From the IMG/VR virus record IMGVR_UViG_3300042691_025708, positions 1 through 22,921 of that record: DNA of 22,921 nucleotides; one strand, 5' to 3'. The notes under the pieces are model-generated. The model was not told the origin of the DNA and made no database searches. It was given only the letters and a program-made list of their open reading frames with translations. The translations under genes and the position numbers were made by a program. This document shows positions 1-11,717 of this stretch, in pieces. Every line of letters starts with the position of its first letter. The first letter of the stretch is position 1. Origin of the DNA: a virus.

Positions 1-612
1 AATGGAGGCATGCAAGGTTTTGATACGACAGTGGGCACCGTCTCTACCGACAAGCAAGGACACAAACACCATCATCGCTATCTTAGCGCGATGGCCACCC
101 GCACCGAAGCCGTGGCACGGTGGCTTTGGGTACAGGGACATGGAGACATGTACGGACGCGACCTTAAGCCCCAATATGCCCGACCGGAAGGTGACGAACA
201 CGGCCGGTGGAAGGCGCCCCCTGTGGATTGGCTCGCCACCCGCACCGAATCCATGGGAAGGTGGCTCACCGGTCCGCCGTTCTCTATCTATCAAGGTTCA
301 GCCTACGACCTCGCGCCACCTACCGATGCGCGGGAGTGGGTGGTTTTCATAGACCCGCCTTACGTTGGTACAAGCGGCTATAAATCGAATCTGCCGCGTG
401 AGCAGGTCATAGAGATAGCGAAGCGATGGAGCCGGGCGGGCGCGCTCGTCTGCATCTCCGAGGCGGTGCCGATTCAGATCGCGGGATGGTACCACCTGCG
501 GATCGACCACGCGCGGCGAGGGCAGAAGCGGACCTTCGGCGCTACAGAGGAGTGGCTCACGATGAACCGCCCGCCGGTCGCGGTGCCGGGAGAGCAAGCG
601 CGGTTGTGGTGA
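1..612 (+). CDS. D12-class DNA adenine N6-methyltransferase, 5' partial
   Basis: The protein carries the catalytic DPPY motif of amino-group methyltransferases in the context VVFIDPPYVGTSGY (DPPY near residues 115-118 counting from the ATG at position 10), followed by a region typical of phage Dam-like enzymes (RGQKRTFGATEEWLTMN). Such enzymes transfer methyl from S-adenosylmethionine to adenine, often to protect phage DNA from restriction. The frame is open to base 1 and the N-terminal SAM-binding FxGxG motif is not in the window, so the gene most likely begins upstream. The ATG at 10 has GGAGG only one base away, too close for a normal ribosome site. A short sequence is duplicated inside the gene (94-108 and 235-249, giving ATRTEAVARWLW and ATRTESMGRWLT). 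Family assignment is firm; specificity is unknown. Confidence 0.82.
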   Translation, partial: NGGMQGFDTTVGTVSTDKQGHKHHHRYLSAMATRTEAVARWLWVQGHGDMYGRDLKPQYARPEGDEHGRWKAPPVDWLATRTESMGRWLTGPPFSIYQGSAYDLAPPTDAREWVVFIDPPYVGTSGYKSNLPREQVIEIAKRWSRAGALVCISEAVPIQIAGWYHLRIDHARRGQKRTFGATEEWLTMNRPPVAVPGEQARLW

Positions 613-641
613 TTGGTCCTGGTGGATTCGGGATGTATAAT
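613..641 (+). promoter_or_regulatory. Candidate sigma70 promoter (upstream member of tandem pair)
   Basis: TTGGTC (613-618) and a perfect TATAAT (636-641) are separated by 17 nt, directly after the methyltransferase stop codon. Its predicted start near 648 would fall inside the 18-bp box at 644-661, as expected for a repressor-controlled start. The -35 matches only 3 of 6, so this is a motif-level call. Confidence 0.45.
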
Positions 642-643
642 AA

Positions 644-661
644 ATCTTGCGAAAGATGTTG
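644..661 (+). repeat. 18-bp palindromic box, copy 1 (putative operator)
   Basis: ATCTTGCGAAAGATGTTG is identical to 1783-1800. It contains the inverted repeat ATCTT-GCGA-AAGAT and its last bases form the start of a -35 box (TTGACG at 659-664). Both copies lie in non-coding gaps just upstream of a small gene, and the helix-turn-helix gene at 1442-1756 lies between them. A regulator-binding site is the simplest reading; as RNA it could also form a 5-bp hairpin with a GCGA loop. Confidence 0.6.
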
Positions 662-687
662 ACGTCAGGAAGGGGAGGACATATAGT
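659..687 (+). promoter_or_regulatory. Strong candidate sigma70 promoter for the 734-1756 operon
   Basis: TTGACG (659-664, 5 of 6 consensus) and TATAGT (682-687, 5 of 6) are separated by exactly 17 nt. The -35 overlaps the end of the 18-bp box. Transcription would start near 694, so the leader RNA would begin with the hairpin at 694-723. Confidence 0.68.
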
Positions 688-693
688 TATTTC

Positions 694-723
694 ACCAGGG
701 CGGACAACAACCAACCGCCTGGT
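694..723 (+). promoter_or_regulatory. Leader hairpin abutting the ribosome site of the 734 gene
   Basis: ACCAGGGCGG (694-703) pairs with CCGCCTGGT (715-723) with one bulged G, leaving an A/C-rich 11-nt loop. The AGGAG ribosome site begins at 724, immediately after the stem. The hairpin coincides with the predicted 5' end of the transcript, so it may stabilise the mRNA or gate translation. Confidence 0.5.
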
Positions 724-733
724 AGGAGTCAAA

Positions 734-964
734 ATGTTTACCTTCCAGGCTACTTCCTCCGCCCACGTCAATGCCCCCGACTCTGCTTTCAGCACCATCA
801 GCCGCCACCGCACTAAGCTTGGCGCCGCCCGCGCCTACGATGCGGCCCGCAAGGCGATGGTGAAGCGCTGCGGCGGCTCCGCGTGGGATCGCAACTTCCG
901 GGTGCTTGACGCCGACGGCCGTGAGCTTGACCTCTTTGACCTCGCGGCGATGGTCGCGAAGTAG
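734..964 (+). CDS. Small protein of unknown function, 76 aa
   Basis: First gene after the promoter at 659-687. The ATG at 734 has AGGAG at 724-728; the open frame extends upstream to 647 but that part covers the promoter and hairpin, so the ATG at 734 is preferred. The protein has an Ala/Arg-rich middle (KLGAARAYDAARKAMVKRCG) followed by a short segment SAWDRNFRVLDADGRELDLF that reads like a beta hairpin. No signal peptide or membrane segment is seen and I do not recognise the family. As the first product of a regulated early operon it may be a host-interaction or regulatory protein, which is inference only. Confidence 0.7.
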   Translation: MFTFQATSSAHVNAPDSAFSTISRHRTKLGAARAYDAARKAMVKRCGGSAWDRNFRVLDADGRELDLFDLAAMVAK

Positions 965-983
965 CCCCCACCCAACCCCGCCC

Positions 984-1010
984 GGCCCGTACCTCGCGAG
1001 AGGACGGGCC
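984..1010 (+). repeat. GNRA hairpin repeat, copy A
   Basis: Arms GGCCCGT-A-CCTC (984-995) and GAGG-ACGGGCC (1000-1010) pair as 4+7 bp with one bulged A and a GCGA loop (996-999). Copies B (2099-2125) and C (2379-2405) differ only by a GCAA loop. The AGGAG ribosome site of the next gene starts 9 nt after the hairpin. The stem is followed by TAAGCC, not a U-run, so it is a poor intrinsic terminator. Confidence 0.75.
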
Positions 1011-1029
1011 TAAGCCGTCAGGAGCCCTC

Positions 1030-1176
1030 ATGCGCTACTCTATCCGCCCCCTTGGGGGCACCCAATGGACCACCACCAAGACCCTCGCCGCCGCACGGCG
1101 AGAGGTCAAAGCAGCCGCCCGCGTTGGGCTGGTTTGCGTCATCATAAATACCAAGACCAACGAGGTGATCAAGTGA
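1030..1176 (+). CDS. Small basic protein of unknown function, 48 aa
   Basis: The ATG at 1030 follows AGGAG (1020-1024) at 5 nt. The frame runs to a TGA at 1174-1176 that overlaps the GTG start of the next gene (GTGA), a coupling arrangement that supports both. The product starts MRYSIRPLGGTQWTTTKTL, continues with an Ala/Arg/Lys helix and ends with a hydrophobic strand (VGLVCVIINTKTNEVIK). It reads like a small alpha/beta phage protein. No family is recognised. It lies directly downstream of hairpin copy A, which may control its translation. Confidence 0.65.
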   Translation: MRYSIRPLGGTQWTTTKTLAAARREVKAAARVGLVCVIINTKTNEVIK

Positions 1177-1445
1177 AACCAAGATTCAAGCTGACCCGCG
1201 CCGAGTTTGGCGCCTACCTTGCGGGCGGGCTCGATCCCGACCGCGAGCATGAGATTGACGTGGCTTATTTGAGCAGTGGTCTGACCAAAGCTCAAGAGTC
1301 CCGCATCAATGACCTCCCAACCGGCCACCCCATCGCGCGTCGGACCTCGGCACTTCTCGAGCGCTCCGGCATTGACGCCGAGATCGAGGCGTTCCGGGCT
1401 GAGTGGTGGGCGTGGAGCGCGCCTGTGATGGGAGGTGCGCCATGA
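1173..1445 (+). CDS. Small acidic protein of unknown function, 90 aa
   Basis: I take the GTG at 1173 as start: GAGGTG at 1162-1167 is 5 nt upstream and the GTGA overlap couples it to the 48-aa gene. An open frame reaches 1065 but reads through the upstream gene out of frame and is low-quality sequence. The protein (KPRFKLTRAEFGAYLAGG..., ending WWAWSAPVMGGAP) appears mostly helical, with an acidic patch DPDREHEIDVAYLSS near the middle. No known domain is recognised. Its TGA overlaps the ATG of the regulator gene (ATGA), so it is probably co-translated with it. Confidence 0.68.
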   Translation: MKPRFKLTRAEFGAYLAGGLDPDREHEIDVAYLSSGLTKAQESRINDLPTGHPIARRTSALLERSGIDAEIEAFRAEWWAWSAPVMGGAP

Positions 1446-4151: not shown

Positions 4152-4484
4152 ATGCCACAGGACCAAGCCACCGACCCCAATATCTCCCCCCAAGTGCGTT
4201 GGTGGCTTGGGGTGCAAGCCCGCTACCGCGCAAGAGGAATACAGGTAGAAGCGCGGGATATCGTTGTCGCCGTTCGTGCGGCGCGTGCGCGCTCGGATGC
4301 GACCGCACTATCCGCACTTGCTGAGCAGATAGACCGCCTCGCAGTCAGGGCTCAACTCGTCGCCACGACCGCAAGCGCAGCCACGCAAGCACCGCCGCCG
4401 CGCGTGATTCATGGGGCGGTGGTGGGCTTGGTCGTTGGCCTGACGGTCGGGCTCGTCATTGGATATGGGCTACGAACGCCTTGA
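4152..4484 (+). CDS. Small membrane protein with C-terminal glycine-zipper helix, 110 aa
   Basis: The ATG at 4152 has TAGGAT about eight nt upstream. Residues 1-75 are hydrophilic and Arg/Ala-rich with a long helix (RDIVVAVRAARARSDATALS). Residues about 86-107 (VIHGAVVGLVVGLTVGLVIG) form one transmembrane helix with repeated GxxxG spacing, which often drives helix packing. The C-terminal tail is only a few residues, so it is a tail-anchored-type protein. Its 3' end overlaps the convergent gene on the - strand by 29 bp. A role in lysis timing (holin or antiholin) or superinfection exclusion is possible; neither is shown. Confidence 0.66.
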   Translation: MPQDQATDPNISPQVRWWLGVQARYRARGIQVEARDIVVAVRAARARSDATALSALAEQIDRLAVRAQLVATTASAATQAPPPRVIHGAVVGLVVGLTVGLVIGYGLRTP

Positions 4485-4752: not shown

Positions 4753-4939
4753 GGCGCACCTCGCGACGACGCGCGCAGAACAGCTCCGCGTCGTCGGCTA
4801 CTCGGTCGCCATCCTCTTCGTCGGGCTCGTCGGTCGGGTCGGGCGGGAAGGTCGGCACGGTCAGGGCCGCCTGTTGGAAAGGCGAGGGCTTAGGGCGCTG
4901 TTGGTTCAGCAACAGCAGGGGCGGGATTAGGTTGACCAT
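4745..4939 (-). CDS. Small proline-rich acidic protein overlapping the holin-like gene, 64 aa
   Basis: The ATG at 4939 lies inside the end of the 124-aa gene in another frame, with GGAG six nt upstream. The protein begins with a hydrophobic run (MVNLIPPLLLLNQQRP), continues Pro-rich (LTVPTFPPDPTDEPDEEDGD) and ends basic (CARRREVRHG). A small Pro-rich gene nested into the end of a membrane-protein gene recalls outer-membrane spanin subunits, but the lipobox cysteine near the N-terminus is absent, so I do not call it a spanin. Overlaps on both sides support co-translation within the lysis cassette. Confidence 0.52.
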   Translation of the reverse strand: MVNLIPPLLLLNQQRPKPSPFQQAALTVPTFPPDPTDEPDEEDGDRVADDAELFCARRREVRHG

Positions 4940-5264
4940 GAATAGCTCCGATGGCTGAGATAGCTTGGGGAATACCGGGAAATATGGCGCCTGACAGCGC
5001 AAGGGCAAGCAGGGCAAAGCCGAGGGCAAGCAAGGTCTGAGCAGGCGTAGAGAGCCCACGCACCGCCCCAAGTACCGACGACAGGCGCCCGGCTTCGAGC
5101 GCGGCGACACGTGCGGTGAGCGCGGCATGGTCGGCGCGGATCTGCTCAACCTCGTCTCCGGCCTTCTTCGCGGCGCGCTTGGCGTCGGCGGAAGCCCGGC
5201 CGGAGCGCGCGACAAGCTCGGCAAGGCGCTCCAAATCGTCAGGGGGCGGGGTGGTAGGGGGCAT
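4890..5264 (-). CDS. Holin-like membrane protein with coiled coil, 124 aa
   Basis: The ATG at 5264 overlaps the endolysin stop (TGATG). Residues about 9-57 form an amphipathic, charged coiled coil (DDLERLAELVARSGRAS; EQIRADHAALTARVAALEAG). A single hydrophobic helix follows at about 75-95 (AQTLLALGFALLALALSGAI), then a Pro/Ala-rich tail. This layout and the place directly after the endolysin fit holin or XhlA-like holin-associated proteins, which let the endolysin reach the wall. The long open frame up to 5321 is an artefact of overlap with the endolysin gene. No sequence motif is decisive, so the role rests on topology and context. Confidence 0.6.
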   Translation of the reverse strand: MPPTTPPPDDLERLAELVARSGRASADAKRAAKKAGDEVEQIRADHAALTARVAALEAGRLSSVLGAVRGLSTPAQTLLALGFALLALALSGAIFPGIPQAISAIGAIHGQPNPAPAVAEPTAP

Positions 5265-5980
5265 CAGACCGCCGCCCTCAGCCCGTCCGGCCCACGGATC
5301 GCGGACTCGGCCGAGGCCCACGCGATCAGCCCATCGGCAAGCACCGCGCCGATCCGGTCGAGGCCGTCAAGCGTCCACAGCGCGGCGTGGGCGGGAGAGT
5401 CGATGAACCCGGGCTCAAAGATGACGCCACAGATGCCGGGAATCGGGTAGGTATCGCGGATGCAGACATGGCCGCGCGTCCACCATGACCAGTCCTCTGT
5501 GCCGTCGGGCTTTCGGGTCGGCTTGCGCCCGGCTTGGCGCGCGCGCTCCACGTCAGCGTAGAGCGGGTCGGTGCGCGTCTTGGTGATCTCGGGCAGGATG
5601 GCGATGCCCTTGGTGGACCGGAACGCGCCCATCAGCAAGTTTACCGCCTCGTTCCCGCGCTTTGACTCCGCGAGCGCACGAGCAAGCGCATAGGTGCCGC
5701 CGCCTGCGTTGACGTGGCATTGGACATATATCCCGCGTGTAACGCCGCGTTCTTTGGCATACTTGGCGATGCGCTCGCACCTGTCGCCGTATTTGCCACC
5801 GTCGATCCATTCGACCATGATTCCGGCTGCTTGAAGCAGGCGCATCGCGCGGTGGCCGTAGACGGAGGCGAGGTCGTATTCTACAAGGTCGCGGTTGGTG
5901 GGGTGTGTGGCGCCCGGATCGAAGACGCCGGCCCGTGTGGAGCTGTCACCATGTCCGGGACCGAGGTAGACGCAGATCAT
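5264..5980 (-). CDS. Endolysin, N-acetylmuramoyl-L-alanine amidase (Amidase_3)
   Basis: Zinc amidase that cuts the bond between MurNAc and L-alanine in peptidoglycan. The 238-aa product shows the family signatures in order: LGPGHG (zinc His10), LVEYDLA (zinc Glu34), VQCHVNAGGG (zinc His89) and VIFEPGFIDSPAH (catalytic Glu189). It consists of the catalytic domain alone, with no wall-binding repeats and no signal peptide, so it should depend on a holin; this form is usual for phages of Gram-negative hosts. I chose the ATG at 5980: GGAGG lies four nt upstream and it overlaps the esterase stop (ATGA). The frame extending to 6349 reads through the esterase and is a shadow. Confidence 0.9.
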   Translation of the reverse strand: MICVYLGPGHGDSSTRAGVFDPGATHPTNRDLVEYDLASVYGHRAMRLLQAAGIMVEWIDGGKYGDRCERIAKYAKERGVTRGIYVQCHVNAGGGTYALARALAESKRGNEAVNLLMGAFRSTKGIAILPEITKTRTDPLYADVERARQAGRKPTRKPDGTEDWSWWTRGHVCIRDTYPIPGICGVIFEPGFIDSPAHAALWTLDGLDRIGAVLADGLIAWASAESAIRGPDGLRAAV

Positions 5981-6774
5981 GGGGCCTCCAATGCCGCAAG
6001 GATAGCACCGCACACCCCCGACGTCACGCAGTCCGCGCTCAGGAGATACCGGTGCGTCAGGTCGGCGCGTGGGATCGTCAGCCCCTCGGCCCAAACCGCA
6101 GCCGACCAGCTTGTAGGGTCGGTCCACCCGACGCCGCCCATGATCGTGGGATCGGCTTGGCTTGTCAGGATCGTAGCGGGGTGCTCTGCCTGAAGCTCGA
6201 CTGCGTAGAGGCTCGTCAGCACCGAGCCCCACAGCGTCAGCGCGCCGGTGATCTGGGCCTCGGCCGCGTAGCCGACAGGCACGTAGCAGCCGTCGGCGAC
6301 CAGCGCCGCGCCCGGCCAGAGGTCGGCACCGGCGTAGACACCGAAGCACCCGGCCGAGCTGCCCGCCAGTACCACCCGGTCACCAGCGGGGATCGCGAGG
6401 TCGGCAGCGATGGCCTCAAGCTGCCGACGCCCCTGGAAATACCACGCGCCCGCAGAGGTCGCGGCCGGTGCGTCGAGGTCGCCGCTGTAGAGGTCGCTGG
6501 AGCAGTAGTGCGCCACCACCACGTTGACGCCGCTCAGGTCGAGGCTGAACAAACCGGTCGAGACCGGCAGCGGCAGCGTCGCGCCGTCGGCGTAGGGCGG
6601 TGTTGTGCCAGGGGCGCGGTCGCGGCAGAAGGCGCGCTGATCGTCGCAGTGCCCCCCGCCGGGGAGGTAGATCAGCCACCGATCCGAGCCCGGCGACTCG
6701 GCGAGGTAGTAGGCCGCTGGTGTGCCGTCGTTGCACAGTGCGCCGAGCTTGAGTAGGGTTGCGATTATGGCCAT
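5977..6774 (-). CDS. Notum/pectin acetylesterase-like serine hydrolase
   Basis: This 265-aa alpha/beta hydrolase matches the pectin acetylesterase (PAE)/Notum family by several motifs in order: an N-terminal CNDGTPAAYYL, WLIYLPGGGHC (family GGGWC) at about 33-43, the hallmark HYCSSDLYSGD at 89-99, and the nucleophile motif LAGSSAGCFG with Ser140. Asp208 (SQADPT) and His241 (LTHRY) are candidates to complete the triad. Known members remove O-acetyl groups from pectin or the palmitoleoyl group from Wnt. No signal peptide is present. It lies between small tail protein and endolysin, overlapping the first by 10 nt and the second by ATGA. It may be a tail-borne deacetylase of host surface glycan or a helper of lysis that removes peptidoglycan O-acetylation; context cannot decide. 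Confidence 0.85.
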   Translation of the reverse strand: MAIIATLLKLGALCNDGTPAAYYLAESPGSDRWLIYLPGGGHCDDQRAFCRDRAPGTTPPYADGATLPLPVSTGLFSLDLSGVNVVVAHYCSSDLYSGDLDAPAATSAGAWYFQGRRQLEAIAADLAIPAGDRVVLAGSSAGCFGVYAGADLWPGAALVADGCYVPVGYAAEAQITGALTLWGSVLTSLYAVELQAEHPATILTSQADPTIMGGVGWTDPTSWSAAVWAEGLTIPRADLTHRYLLSADCVTSGVCGAILAALEAP

Positions 6775-7178
6775 GTGATAAACACGTCCAATCGCGTGAT
6801 GTTGCCGCTTGATGCGAGGTTTGGCGCACAGTACAGGCAGCCGTTGGCGTCGGTGCGGAACAGGATGCCACTGTCCAACTTGGCGCCTGACACAACCGGC
6901 GCTTTGTTGTAAGTCGTGGCTGAACCTGCTTTGTCAATCTCTGTGGTCGTGTCGGCGGTTGTGTCGTTGTTGTAAAACGCAACCTGATTATTGACCGAAG
7001 AGGTCATGTCATACCGACGCATCACGAGAGTCTTGCTTGCGGGCAGGCCCGAGAGCTTGATCCAGCCGGATGTGGTCTCCGCGTAGACAGCATCAAGGGT
7101 GAAGCTGTACGTGACCCGCAGGTTGGACAAGTCCATCTGTTCGGTTGCAGTCAGGGTTTTGGTTACGGTGATAGCCAC
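6765..7178 (-). CDS. Small beta-rich tail-tip protein, 137 aa
   Basis: The GTG start at 7178 directly follows the TAA of the hub gene, with GGGAGA about six nt upstream. The sequence is beta-rich and Thr/Ser-rich (TVTKTLTATEQMDLSNLRVT; GWIKLSGLPASKTLVMRRYD), as in small tail or fibre proteins, and ends NITRLDVFITWP. No membrane segment or catalytic motif is visible. Its position after the hub suggests a tail-tip or adhesin accessory. Because it overlaps the esterase start, it may be the structural partner that holds the esterase on the virion, which is inference. Confidence 0.62.
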   Translation of the reverse strand: MAITVTKTLTATEQMDLSNLRVTYSFTLDAVYAETTSGWIKLSGLPASKTLVMRRYDMTSSVNNQVAFYNNDTTADTTTEIDKAGSATTYNKAPVVSGAKLDSGILFRTDANGCLYCAPNLASSGNITRLDVFITWP

Positions 7179-8735
7179 TTAGATTCTCCCATCCCGCACA
7201 GGAGAGCGCGGGAAAAGCTTGATTCGGCAGGTCGGCGGATCGGTCGATAGCCCGACCTGTGAGACGTAGCCGTACCGACTCGTCAGCCCGTAGTCCGGGT
7301 CGGTGAGCCGCACGATTTGACCCGCGCGCAGCTCGGGACAGGCGCCGGGGTCATAGTAATAGTCGAGGTACGAGGCAGGTAACGCCCGCCGGTTGGCGAT
7401 AGAGACGAGCGCCCGCCGCGCTGTCGCGTCGTCCCATGTGCAGGACCAATTCAGCGTTGGTGCGACCGACACCCCATACACCTCTTTAGACCAGAAGCAA
7501 AGGGCGTTATTTGTGTCGTCTACCGTGACAGTCTTCATGTACCGCTGATAGAAGTGGTCATAGAAGTAGTTGAGGATAAACCGATTATACGGCGTTGTCC
7601 CCTCTATCTTCAGCCCGCCGACAGTCCCAAGCAGGTGCGTCGGCGCGGTCAGATCCACCTCGGGACGGAGGTTATCCAAGTCAATGTAGGCAAACCATAG
7701 GCCGTCATTGGACTGCATTTTGACGAGCGGGAGATAAGGAAGCAAGCGCTCTTCGATGATATCAAGTGCGTTCGTCTCCTCATCGACGTAGACACCACCG
7801 CGCCACCCGCGCAGCCTATCCAACGCAGGGCGCATCCTGACCCAATCCACCGCCGCGCCGGAGCGGACAAGCAGCCAATGGAGCGCGTCCGCGAGGTCTT
7901 GCACAGGGCGATCACCTTCGACGGCGCGAACCCCACCGGCTACAGCGTCGAAGGTGAACGCCAATGCAGATCCGCTAAAGTAGTCGTGCAAACCTACAGT
8001 ATCCTGAAGCACGCACACCGGTTCTCCCGCGTCGGTCACGGTGTTGACCGGGGTATCGTGCGCCGGAGCGAGCGCGGCCCCATCGCCGTAGACAATGACA
8101 ACGGTTGTCGTGTCGTGGAAATGGTGACCGGCCAACACAAGCTCATCGGCTGAACCGGAAGAGCCCACCTTGTAGCCGGGGATTCGGTAGCATGGACCGA
8201 TAATCAGCGGGAACTGCTGACCCTCCAACGAGGTCGGCATAATCCGGGTGTCGTACTCGGCCTCGATGTCGCGTTCAGCATCCCCAACAGAGTCAGAGTT
8301 GGCGTTGATCGGGATGGATTCGATGGTAAAGCTAAGCGGCTCGTTCGCCCGCCCAAGCTCCGCAAGCTGCACCCGACCCGTCAGCAGGATCCGCCGCGCG
8401 GTGTAGTCCTCGTCGGGCCACCACAACGCCACCTCTGCCGTCGAGGCCGAGAAGAGGTATCCCTGAAGCTCCAAGACCGCCGGGTCAATATGGGGCGGCA
8501 TCGTCGCCGATACCCGCACCTGTGCCGCCGATCCGATGGCGTCGGTCGCGAGGTAGTCTACCTCCTCGGCGAAGTCCTCGATCTGCGCGCCGCCGAAGTA
8601 ACTGAGCGGCCCGTCGCCGGTCGCGTAGGGGACAGAGGCCTCCTCGGTCGCCACCCGGACCGTCGTACCCGGCAGCCGGATCGTCACGAGGTAGACGCCG
8701 ACGCGCCCGCGCTCGATCTGCGCGCGGCGGCTCAT
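7179..8735 (-). CDS. Tail hub / baseplate-like minor tail protein, 518 aa
   Basis: The ATG at 8735 overlaps the stop of the large tail protein (ATGA). The sequence is beta-rich throughout with regions typical of siphovirus tail hub proteins: an N-terminal half with VYLVTIRLPGTTVRVATE and ARRILLTGRVQLAELGRA, and a C-terminal part with NRFILNYFYDHFYQRYMKTV and ACPELRAGQIVRLTDPDYGL. The last resembles the part of central tail proteins that describes orientation and binding of the tip. The position after tape measure and distal tail protein supports this. I cannot name the family exactly. It probably forms the central hub through which the tape measure and DNA exit. Confidence 0.62.
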   Translation of the reverse strand: MSRRAQIERGRVGVYLVTIRLPGTTVRVATEEASVPYATGDGPLSYFGGAQIEDFAEEVDYLATDAIGSAAQVRVSATMPPHIDPAVLELQGYLFSASTAEVALWWPDEDYTARRILLTGRVQLAELGRANEPLSFTIESIPINANSDSVGDAERDIEAEYDTRIMPTSLEGQQFPLIIGPCYRIPGYKVGSSGSADELVLAGHHFHDTTTVVIVYGDGAALAPAHDTPVNTVTDAGEPVCVLQDTVGLHDYFSGSALAFTFDAVAGGVRAVEGDRPVQDLADALHWLLVRSGAAVDWVRMRPALDRLRGWRGGVYVDEETNALDIIEERLLPYLPLVKMQSNDGLWFAYIDLDNLRPEVDLTAPTHLLGTVGGLKIEGTTPYNRFILNYFYDHFYQRYMKTVTVDDTNNALCFWSKEVYGVSVAPTLNWSCTWDDATARRALVSIANRRALPASYLDYYYDPGACPELRAGQIVRLTDPDYGLTSRYGYVSQVGLSTDPPTCRIKLFPRSPVRDGRI

Positions 8736-11695
8736 ACGAACTCCGTCAGCGTGAGCTGCGCAACGCGCGAGAAGTCATCGAAGCCCTCGCCCGTGACATT
8801 CTCCAGCCCGAACGCACCATCTATCGTGACGAGCCGGAGCGCTTGGGGTACGCCGGTATCGGGCCAGAAACAGACCGGCTCCCGTCCCACGTCAAGCGCC
8901 TGCATGAACGCCGACAACTGCGCGGGGTATCCGTCAAAGTTCCGGTCCATCGGGTCCCATGCGATGCGCCGCGACCACTTCGTGGGGCCGCGCTGCCGGA
9001 TGGACGTATAACCTGCGTCGGATGCGCTCTTTGACAGCATCGGCACAAGTTCGGTCACGAATTGGCTTGCGTAAGGGACCGTCATCGTGTGGCGCGTGCC
9101 GACGTAGAAAGTGCCGGTCTCCCATGCATTTTCCTGGCTATCTGCCTGAATCGATGCGCCCTCGATGACGAGCCGTAGATACTCCGCGCCTGTCGCCACC
9201 GGGATAAACGCCGCCATCCGGTCGCCGTACACCTTGACCGCCGCGCCGGTATGCGCGCTTAGGTCCGCCGCGACGAAGATCCGGCCCGCGCTGTTGTCGG
9301 TGATCTCATAAGCTTGGGCACCCGCGACGAGCAGATACCACTTGCGCCCCATGACGGACCGATATCCGCCCGGCGCAAAGGGGAACCCGTCTACCTCGAT
9401 AAAGCCCTTCCCCCCTGCGCTCGCGACACCCGACCACACCACCGCCGACATCGAAGCCGAGCCGGCCGGGGTAGCCCACGAGTCAGAGCTATTCCATTCG
9501 ACCCGCGCGTTGGGGTAGTTGGTGCCGACCAATGCGAAGGCATCGAAGTAGAACAGGCGCGAGTTTCCGTAGAACACGGCGTTCTGGTTACTATTATCGT
9601 CAGCCTTCCACCGTGACGAGGGCCGCGCGTTCGCCCACACCAACGCGGCCCGGTGCTGATACGTCGTTGTCAGGGTGTAGGTATCGCCGGCCGCGCCCAC
9701 GCCACCATAGGCACCAACGTAGACGTCAGACTTGACGAAGACCGGCTTGGAAAGCGAGATAGCCCGGCCCGTCAGGTCGGTCGGGTTAGTGAACCCGGCC
9801 GAAAGCCCGTTGTCATCTTCGTAGATCGCCACAAGCTGAATCGTCCAATCGACCGCGCCTGCATCCGTGCCGCCGAAGCGCACGAAATCACCGGTCGAAC
9901 CGGCAAGCTCAGCGATGGCTTGGTTGCTGATGATGGGCGTCCAGAACGTGTCACCGGCCGCACGAGCCGACGCTGACGCAAGCCCACCTCCGGCAGACGG
10001 ATAGTCATGGTGGAACGCGACGAGTAGCTCAAAGTTACTCGTCGTGTCAAGGCTGACAGTCGCAAGTGTCCCGCTATTGTCGAGCGCCCGGATCTGCGTT
10101 GTGCTGAACCGGAACTCCACAAACTGCCGGTTTGTCCCGTCATCTATGCTGATGACGAGGATAGAGCGCCGGTCCGCGACCGACCCATCCGACGACACCT
10201 TGCCGATAAAGAGCAGATGCCGTGATTCACCGGTAGCAGGCGAGAAAGCAGCGGTATTCGAGGTGTAGTAGCTGTTGACCGCGCCCGTGCCGATGATCCG
10301 CGTCCCGTTGATCGTCGTCGAAACGGTCGCGCCCGCGCCTACATCGGTCTTGGTGTACCCAAGGTTATCGGGCAAATCATAGCCGGTCAGGCTGCTTTCC
10401 ATGAAGGCGTATGACCCGTTGTTATTCCGGGTCAAGCTGTCATATCCGCCGAACCATAGCTCTTGTGTGCTGTCGTCGTCAGCAACGGTCGTCACATCGG
10501 TCACGCCCAACAGAACCAAGCTCGACTCAAAGCGCCCAAGCGACAGGCTCTTATAGCCGATATTCGAGGTATTCCCGTCAATCCACACGGTCTGATAGGC
10601 CGTCGATGTCCCGCCCACCGCCACAAAGCTCATGCCCCCATCGTGAGACGCCCGCGCGTCAATGGTGCGGCACGGGCTGTGCGTGACACCACAGAAGACA
10701 TAGATCGACCCGTCATCGTGCGTCACCGCCCCAAAAGCCGGGCTTGCTGCCACCGCGTTGAGCGCCGTGTCGGTGTAGTCGCCGAGCGCGCCGCCCGCAG
10801 GCAGGGTGTAGGCGTAGATGCTCCCATCTGCTGAAGTCGAGGCGAAGAGCACAACCCCATCACCGGCCGGTGTGGTCGCGAGCGCATGACCGCGCAGGGC
10901 AGAATCAGACCCGGTGCCGCTGAAGGTTTGTCCGCCGTCAAAGCTCCACATCACGTATAGCGTCGCCGAGGTCGCATCCGACGCGCCGGACACGAGGCAG
11001 ACCGCATCACCCGCCACCTCGGCCGAAAGTGCCGGGCCGCGTGTAGCTCGGGTGTCTTTGCTCCACAGGGACCACGTTGCGCCGTTGTCGGTCGAAGTGT
11101 AGGCGTAGACCTTGCTCAAATAGTCAACGTAGGCAATCAGCCGCCCACTCTTGAGAATCACCCAAGCCGGCCGGCGGTTGACCGCTACATCCGAGCTTGC
11201 GGCCCGGATATTGACCTCGGTCCATGTCGCCGTGGTCCGGCTTGCCTTGTAGCGAAAGACCGGGGTTTGCGTCCCACCACTGTTGTGCTTCAGTGCGACG
11301 TAGCCAATCGACCCGTTGGGGAGCCTGCGGACCGGGCAGACCTGCGGATAGTCGTCGGTCGCGTCAGCCATGGCCGAGGTGCGGCAGTAGGTGACAAAGG
11401 GCACGTCCGTATATCCGCGCCATTGGGAGCTTGAATCAGTGGTATTCTTCCACCGCATCGTACACCCGACCAGATCCGACGAAGGCGCAGCCGAGCCCAC
11501 CGCTACGCCGCCGGTCTGAAGCGCGATGTCGAGGCTCACCGCCGCCGATGGTACGCCGGAGGAGGAGAGTAGCAGGGTTCCGGCGTTGGATGTGGATGCT
11601 TCAGCGACCCCGACGGTGAGCCCGTTCTCATCCGAAGCTGAGAGAACTCGGCTTACAGATGCAAGGTGGGTTTGCCGTAAGAAAGCGCCGGGCAT
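8732..11695 (-). CDS. Large tail protein with sialidase-type Asp-box propeller, 987 aa
   Basis: The ATG at 11695 has GAGGA six nt upstream; a TTG two codons earlier is less likely. Three Asp-box motifs (SxDxGxxW/F) occur at about residues 201-208 (STDNGATW), 251-258 (SFDGGQTF) and 350-357 (SHDGGMSF), the signature of sialidase/BNR beta-propellers. A lectin/LamG-like stretch follows (FVEFRFSTTQIRALDNSGTL, roughly 500-620). The final 200 residues (GGYRSVMGRKWYLLVAGAQA; WSRRIAWDPMDRNFDGYPAQ) look like a distal-tail or baseplate domain. So a tail-anchored C-terminus seems fused to a carbohydrate-facing N-terminus. Asp boxes alone do not prove enzymatic activity; it could be a receptor-binding adhesin or a glycan depolymerase. 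Confidence 0.72.
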   Translation of the reverse strand: MPGAFLRQTHLASVSRVLSASDENGLTVGVAEASTSNAGTLLLSSSGVPSAAVSLDIALQTGGVAVGSAAPSSDLVGCTMRWKNTTDSSSQWRGYTDVPFVTYCRTSAMADATDDYPQVCPVRRLPNGSIGYVALKHNSGGTQTPVFRYKASRTTATWTEVNIRAASSDVAVNRRPAWVILKSGRLIAYVDYLSKVYAYTSTDNGATWSLWSKDTRATRGPALSAEVAGDAVCLVSGASDATSATLYVMWSFDGGQTFSGTGSDSALRGHALATTPAGDGVVLFASTSADGSIYAYTLPAGGALGDYTDTALNAVAASPAFGAVTHDDGSIYVFCGVTHSPCRTIDARASHDGGMSFVAVGGTSTAYQTVWIDGNTSNIGYKSLSLGRFESSLVLLGVTDVTTVADDDSTQELWFGGYDSLTRNNNGSYAFMESSLTGYDLPDNLGYTKTDVGAGATVSTTINGTRIIGTGAVNSYYTSNTAAFSPATGESRHLLFIGKVSSDGSVADRRSILVISIDDGTNRQFVEFRFSTTQIRALDNSGTLATVSLDTTSNFELLVAFHHDYPSAGGGLASASARAAGDTFWTPIISNQAIAELAGSTGDFVRFGGTDAGAVDWTIQLVAIYEDDNGLSAGFTNPTDLTGRAISLSKPVFVKSDVYVGAYGGVGAAGDTYTLTTTYQHRAALVWANARPSSRWKADDNSNQNAVFYGNSRLFYFDAFALVGTNYPNARVEWNSSDSWATPAGSASMSAVVWSGVASAGGKGFIEVDGFPFAPGGYRSVMGRKWYLLVAGAQAYEITDNSAGRIFVAADLSAHTGAAVKVYGDRMAAFIPVATGAEYLRLVIEGASIQADSQENAWETGTFYVGTRHTMTVPYASQFVTELVPMLSKSASDAGYTSIRQRGPTKWSRRIAWDPMDRNFDGYPAQLSAFMQALDVGREPVCFWPDTGVPQALRLVTIDGAFGLENVTGEGFDDFSRVAQLTLTEFV

Positions 11696-11700
11696 ATACA
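11672..11700 (+). promoter_or_regulatory. Candidate promoter for the antisense lipoprotein gene
   Basis: TTGCCG (672-677 within the 11-kb block, i.e. 11672-11677) and TATACA (11695-11700) are 17 nt apart, each matching 4 of 6 consensus bases; TACAAT at 11697-11702 matches 5 of 6 but at 19-nt spacing. The element lies within the 5' end of the oppositely oriented tail gene and would give a leader of about 10 nt. Confidence 0.42.
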
Positions 11701-11717
11701 ATCCTCAGAAGGTCAAG

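Follow-up and report, generated by a model that had tools for sequence, protein, structure and literature searches.

Bacterial viruses are known to modify host envelopes with esterases of only a few families, such as the SGNH enzymes of spikes and LysB. Tailspike deacetylases include gp55 of phage PP99 (PMC6989608) and gp63.1 of phage G7C, the latter as it is cited in PMC13123978. LysB of mycobacteriophages is a precedent for an alpha/beta-hydrolase esterase that acts as a third lysis enzyme (PMC5707550; PMC6116005). The pectinacetylesterase (PAE)/Notum family (PF03283; CAZy family CE13) occurs in plants, animals and bacteria and is essentially absent from known viruses. Here we describe a member encoded in IMGVR_UViG_3300042691_025708, an IMG/VR record of an uncultured bacterial virus (22,921 bases, all of which make up the window analysed). 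The enzyme family is already known; what is new is its compact, leaderless, phage-encoded form.

The esterase gene and its neighbourhood

The esterase gene lies at 5977-6774 on the minus strand, with an ATG at 6774 and a TGA ending at 5977, and encodes 265 amino acids. The reading frame was checked, and the coordinates and length given in the preliminary description are correct. Codon usage (0.373 bits per codon, GC3 of 0.84) is like that of the remaining phage genes, and the two alternative frames over the gene score 0.12 and -0.02 bits per codon. The ATG at 6774 is preceded by no other start codon among the open codons of its frame. We looked in this frame for the N-terminal signal peptide that is typical of PF03283 members and found none. 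In fact, given the lack of an upstream start codon and a domain that begins at about residue 11, no signal peptide is possible from a standard start codon, and the esterase is leaderless. This does not exclude membership in PF03283, because the family is not defined by a signal peptide.

Genes on the minus strand are ordered as tape measure, 989-aa protein, 518-aa protein, 137-aa protein, esterase, Amidase_3-like endolysin and a holin-like protein with one transmembrane segment. The tape-measure gene (12041-14116, minus) was identified by a match to phrog_973 (E=1.1e-17). The 989-aa product (8732-11701, minus) is probably a distal tail protein; residues 122-261 have weak BNR/Asp-box (sialidase-type propeller) similarity (BNR_2, E=2.3e-5, 24.3 bits, below the Pfam cut-off of 31.4). 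From its position, the 518-aa product (7179-8735, minus) is probably a tail-tip or hub protein. The 137-aa protein (6765-7178, minus) is encoded by the last gene of the tail block and matches no Pfam or PHROG family. All three of these probable tail-tip proteins (6765-11701, minus) lack a PHROG match. The 137-aa frame ends ...ATC ACA TGG CCA TAA, and its last 10 bases (6765-6774) are shared with the start of the esterase gene. The overlap with a small upstream gene that had been described earlier stands, whereas the label "small tail protein" reflects the position of this gene and has no family match behind it.

At its other end, the esterase gene is joined to that of a putative N-acetylmuramoyl-L-alanine amidase, a 238-aa endolysin (5264-5980, minus; PHROG 435 endolysin, E=1.7e-7; Amidase_3, E=0.003, below cut-off). 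The esterase stop and endolysin start overlap in the ATGA at 5977-5980 (CCATGATC), as previously noted, and the endolysin has its own GGAGG ribosome-binding site inside the 3' end of the esterase gene. The holin-like gene (4890-5321, minus) overlaps the 3' end of the endolysin gene. Its product, recognized from hydropathy and position, has a coil-like N-terminal region and one hydrophobic segment (19-residue mean of 2.28) and matches no Pfam or PHROG family; we infer the holin function from gene position.

The esterase frame is a genuine gene: its coding style is the phage's own, and overlaps at both ends tie it into an operon that runs from tail to lysis genes. We considered a chimeric contig or host contamination as the source of the gene and rejected both, because the gene overlaps phage genes at both ends and has their codon usage.

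Elsewhere in the window, a probable major head protein (18157-19152, minus) matches only the C-terminal parts of the protease-fused head families phrog_133 and phrog_4523. A frame that is open at the left edge (1-612, plus), on the strand opposite to the structural genes, contains a DPPY motif and weakly matches a DNA methyltransferase family (phrog_56, E=0.005). A 110-aa frame (4152-4484, plus) runs convergently to the lysis genes, and the C-terminal part of its product includes a hydrophobic segment (19-residue mean of 2.43). The head morphogenesis protein has only about 30% identity to proteins of many unrelated phages, and tblastn found no match for the portal among known phages. From the latter result and the tail-tip proteins without PHROG matches, we conclude that this phage is far from described ones. 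The portal was also sought in 379 Myxococcota genomes as a clue to the host; none was found, a result that is uninformative about the host.

Family membership

PF03283 is the sole Pfam match of the esterase (74.9 bits, E=8.4e-21; curated cut-off of 26.6 bits). In a phmmer search of solved chains, the only match was NOTUM (E about 1e-14), and searches of PHROGs and NCBIfam gave no match. The motifs on which the preliminary description based its PAE/Notum call are present (PGGGHC at residues 38-43, HYCSSDLYSGD at 89-99 and GSSAG at 138-142), and the call itself holds. By sequence comparison we firmly assign the esterase to the PAE/Notum family. Shared with the family are the CNDG, GGGxC, YCSSDxxSG and GSSAG motifs, four invariant cysteines and a probable Ser-Asp-His order. 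Unlike the family at large, the phage protein is only 265 aa long, lacks a signal peptide and is encoded in a phage late operon.

The closest cellular relatives found are PAEs of Myxococcota, with 42-47% identity to the esterase over residues 11-151. In our sample of this phylum, 140 of 284 genomes have PF03283 above cut-off. Myxococcota PAEs (e.g., loci L041-L046) have open frames of about 390-740 aa and a longer C-terminal half than the phage enzyme. Human NOTUM, a palmitoleoyl-protein carboxylesterase (4UYU), has about 36% identity to the esterase over 145 residues.

Catalytic residues and predicted structure

Against a profile of 22 PAEs, most of them myxococcal, residues 11-151 of the esterase score 132.7 bits, and the sequence beyond scores almost nothing. 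The C-terminal part, 114 residues and much shorter than its equivalent in cellular relatives, is hard to align (-1.8 bits against the family profile). Among 23 aligned sequences, Cys14, Cys43, Cys50, Cys91 and Asp94 are invariant. The four cysteines suggest a disulphide-bonded fold, as would be expected of an extracellular enzyme and would be awkward for folding in the cytoplasm.

A Ser140-Asp208-His241 triad had been proposed, and its parts fare differently. Ser140, in G138-S139-S140-A141-G142 after the YC..D block, is kept in 22 of the 23 aligned sequences; support for it is strong, and it can be predicted with certainty to be the nucleophile. Asp208 and His241 fall in conserved family columns (Asp in 21 of the 21 sequences with a residue there, His in 20 of 21) and probably complete the triad. 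Their support is moderate: shuffling of residues 164-265 left both columns correctly filled in 11 of 300 trials (3.7%), so the alignment is support and not proof. A profile built from the esterase, five bacterial PAEs and part of NOTUM covers the NOTUM catalytic domain (E=3.6e-84), and with this profile the NOTUM WLFDEAQ and LSHEI segments fall under the Asp and His columns. D340 of NOTUM is the counterpart of the catalytic Asp of the family (PMC5465549).

The Ser-Asp spacing is 68 in the esterase versus 91-116 in 19 bacterial relatives, and the Asp-His spacing is 33 versus 40-55. From these shortened distances, the phage protein appears to be a reduced PAE. The region from Ser to Asp is about 40 residues longer in human NOTUM. 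The oxyanion hole reads GGW in NOTUM and GGG in the phage esterase, as it does in bacterial PAEs. The GGG and the short Ser-Asp region make a small acyl group likelier as the substrate than a fatty acid, and a fatty-acyl pocket is unlikely.

AlphaFold was run twice, and the models (mean pLDDT of 39.6 and 40.9) are too poor for triad geometry. The alignments used held four and five sequences, with only the N-terminal halves of relatives, as the C-terminal halves were not reliably alignable. Even so poor a model places a strand at 133-138, then the nucleophile, then a helix from about residue 141, an N-terminal order that would be as the alpha/beta-hydrolase fold demands. Foldseek ranked NOTUM first for the first model, with a TM of about 0.3. 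We discarded this match as evidence for the fold, because the alignment behind the model contained PAEs and the match is not independent.

Occurrence among viruses

Searches by tblastn of 50,697 phage records with the esterase (E up to 10) and two bacterial PAEs (E up to 1) found no PAE, which bears out the rarity in phages previously suggested. Motif scans directed at PAEs in 2.9 million IMG/VR contigs gave 14 pattern matches. We rejected 13 of these as nucleotide-sugar-epimerase-like or chance matches, leaving one further PAE. As the scans demand exact motifs, relatives with other codons or residues may be missed. When IMG/VR and GTDB contigs were scanned for patterns drawn from single proteins or small alignments, no relative turned up for the esterase, for the 518-aa protein or for the endolysin, and no relative of the esterase was found on the plasmids searched. 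We found no report in the literature searched that ties pectin acetylesterase or CE13 to a phage gene product.

Besides the phage esterase, virus records yielded a single PF03283 protein, L063, encoded at bases 263-1246 (plus) of IMGVR_UViG_3300042090_002370. It differs from the phage esterase in its length (327 aa), its signal-peptide-like N-terminus (secreted type) and its YCSGD subtype. The gene is at the extreme start of a 163,859-base contig; its neighbours are two similar genes in tandem, a gene for a TnpB-like transposase and one for a phosphoribosyl transferase. The position at the contig edge and the transposase and phosphoribosyl transferase genes make a virus origin uncertain, and this PAE may be of cellular origin.

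Possible roles of the esterase

Our preferred reading, held tentatively and with a little less than even confidence, is that the protein is a leaderless, size-reduced PAE/Notum serine carboxylester hydrolase that is released along with the endolysin to cleave small acyl esters on host envelope polysaccharide. The enzyme would be made late, alongside tail and lysis proteins, and would be active through the Ser140-Asp208-His241 triad. Once the holin opened the membrane, the esterase would exit the cytoplasm together with the endolysin and cleave esters, most likely O-acetyl, on an envelope polysaccharide. As a result, the envelope would disassemble, or progeny would not stick to debris. Consistent with this is the lysis cassette itself, in which the esterase gene is followed by those of the endolysin and the holin-like protein. 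The catalytic domain begins at residue 11 of 265 and fills the protein, so that a virion-anchoring domain would have no room. Mycobacteriophage LysB is likewise encoded beside an endolysin and a holin gene, and the role proposed here may be comparable. The comparison is one of role and not of homology, as the esterase matches only PF03283 in Pfam and no PHROG. LysB belongs to a different sequence family and acts on mycolyl esters.

Export at lysis has to be weighed against assembly into the virion, as the esterase gene abuts the tail block equally, which counts against a reading restricted to lysis. As the product of the last tail gene, the enzyme could sit at the tail tip, perhaps via its 137-aa neighbour, and strip capsule or O-polysaccharide of O-acetyl groups while the phage adsorbs, as tailspikes with SGNH domains do. 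We regard this as a realistic possibility, if a doubtful one. The gene directly follows the tail-tip genes, with the 10-base overlap, and the weak propeller similarity of the 989-aa protein suggests contact with glycans. Tailspike deacetylases are established in phages (gp63.1 of G7C and gp55 of PP99), and esterases that adjoin receptor-binding proteins have been reported (PMC13123978). These enzymes, like SGNH-domain fibres, resemble the phage esterase in being phage carbohydrate esterases near tail genes. They have SGNH or other spike architecture and are fused to trimeric spikes, whereas the present protein consists of a catalytic domain alone and belongs to another family. The virion deacetylases known so far are mostly SGNH enzymes and occur as fusions with a spike or fibre; the esterase has no anchoring or trimerisation domain and no spike or fibre architecture. 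Moreover, its downstream overlap is with the endolysin gene.

The preliminary description had also raised the idea of a peptidoglycan O-acetylesterase that aids the endolysin by removing O-acetyl groups from MurNAc. The coupling of the gene to that of a peptidoglycan amidase is as this idea would predict, but MurNAc O-acetylation is known mainly as a block to muramidases and lytic transglycosylases rather than to amidases, and the endolysin encoded next to the esterase is of Amidase_3 type. De-O-acetylation in aid of the amidase is less likely because it is chiefly enzymes cleaving the glycan strand that are blocked. To our knowledge, all known peptidoglycan O-acetylesterases belong to families other than PAE/Notum. 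We consider this role very unlikely; a LysB-like attack on another envelope ester, or a virion deacetylase, fits better. It is also improbable that the gene plays no part in infection, being a host-derived passenger (moron) or encoding a degenerate enzyme. In favour of this reading, the C-terminal half, shortened and barely alignable, may have lost catalysis, the gene was seen in one phage only, and PAEs are abundant in some bacteria, as in the Myxococcota sampled. Against this are the intact frame with phage-type codon usage, the full retention of the four invariant cysteines and the GSSAG, YCSSD and CNDG motifs, and the tight gene overlaps on either side.

Implications

The lysis-linked envelope role could be taken further, with the esterase as a member of a new class of lysis enzymes in phages: a mini-PAE, made without a leader, would de-esterify envelope polysaccharide together with an amidase endolysin. 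This would be a LysB-like third step, independently recruited from the PAE/Notum family, in a host group without a known step of this kind; we consider this broader proposal rather unlikely. A PAE/Notum enzyme in a phage late operon would add this family to the list of esterases with which phages modify envelopes. Stripped of its leader and much of the C-terminal half, the protein would offer structural work a minimal PAE from nature, and it would point to an esterified polymer in the host envelope as an obstacle important enough for the virus to devote a gene to it.
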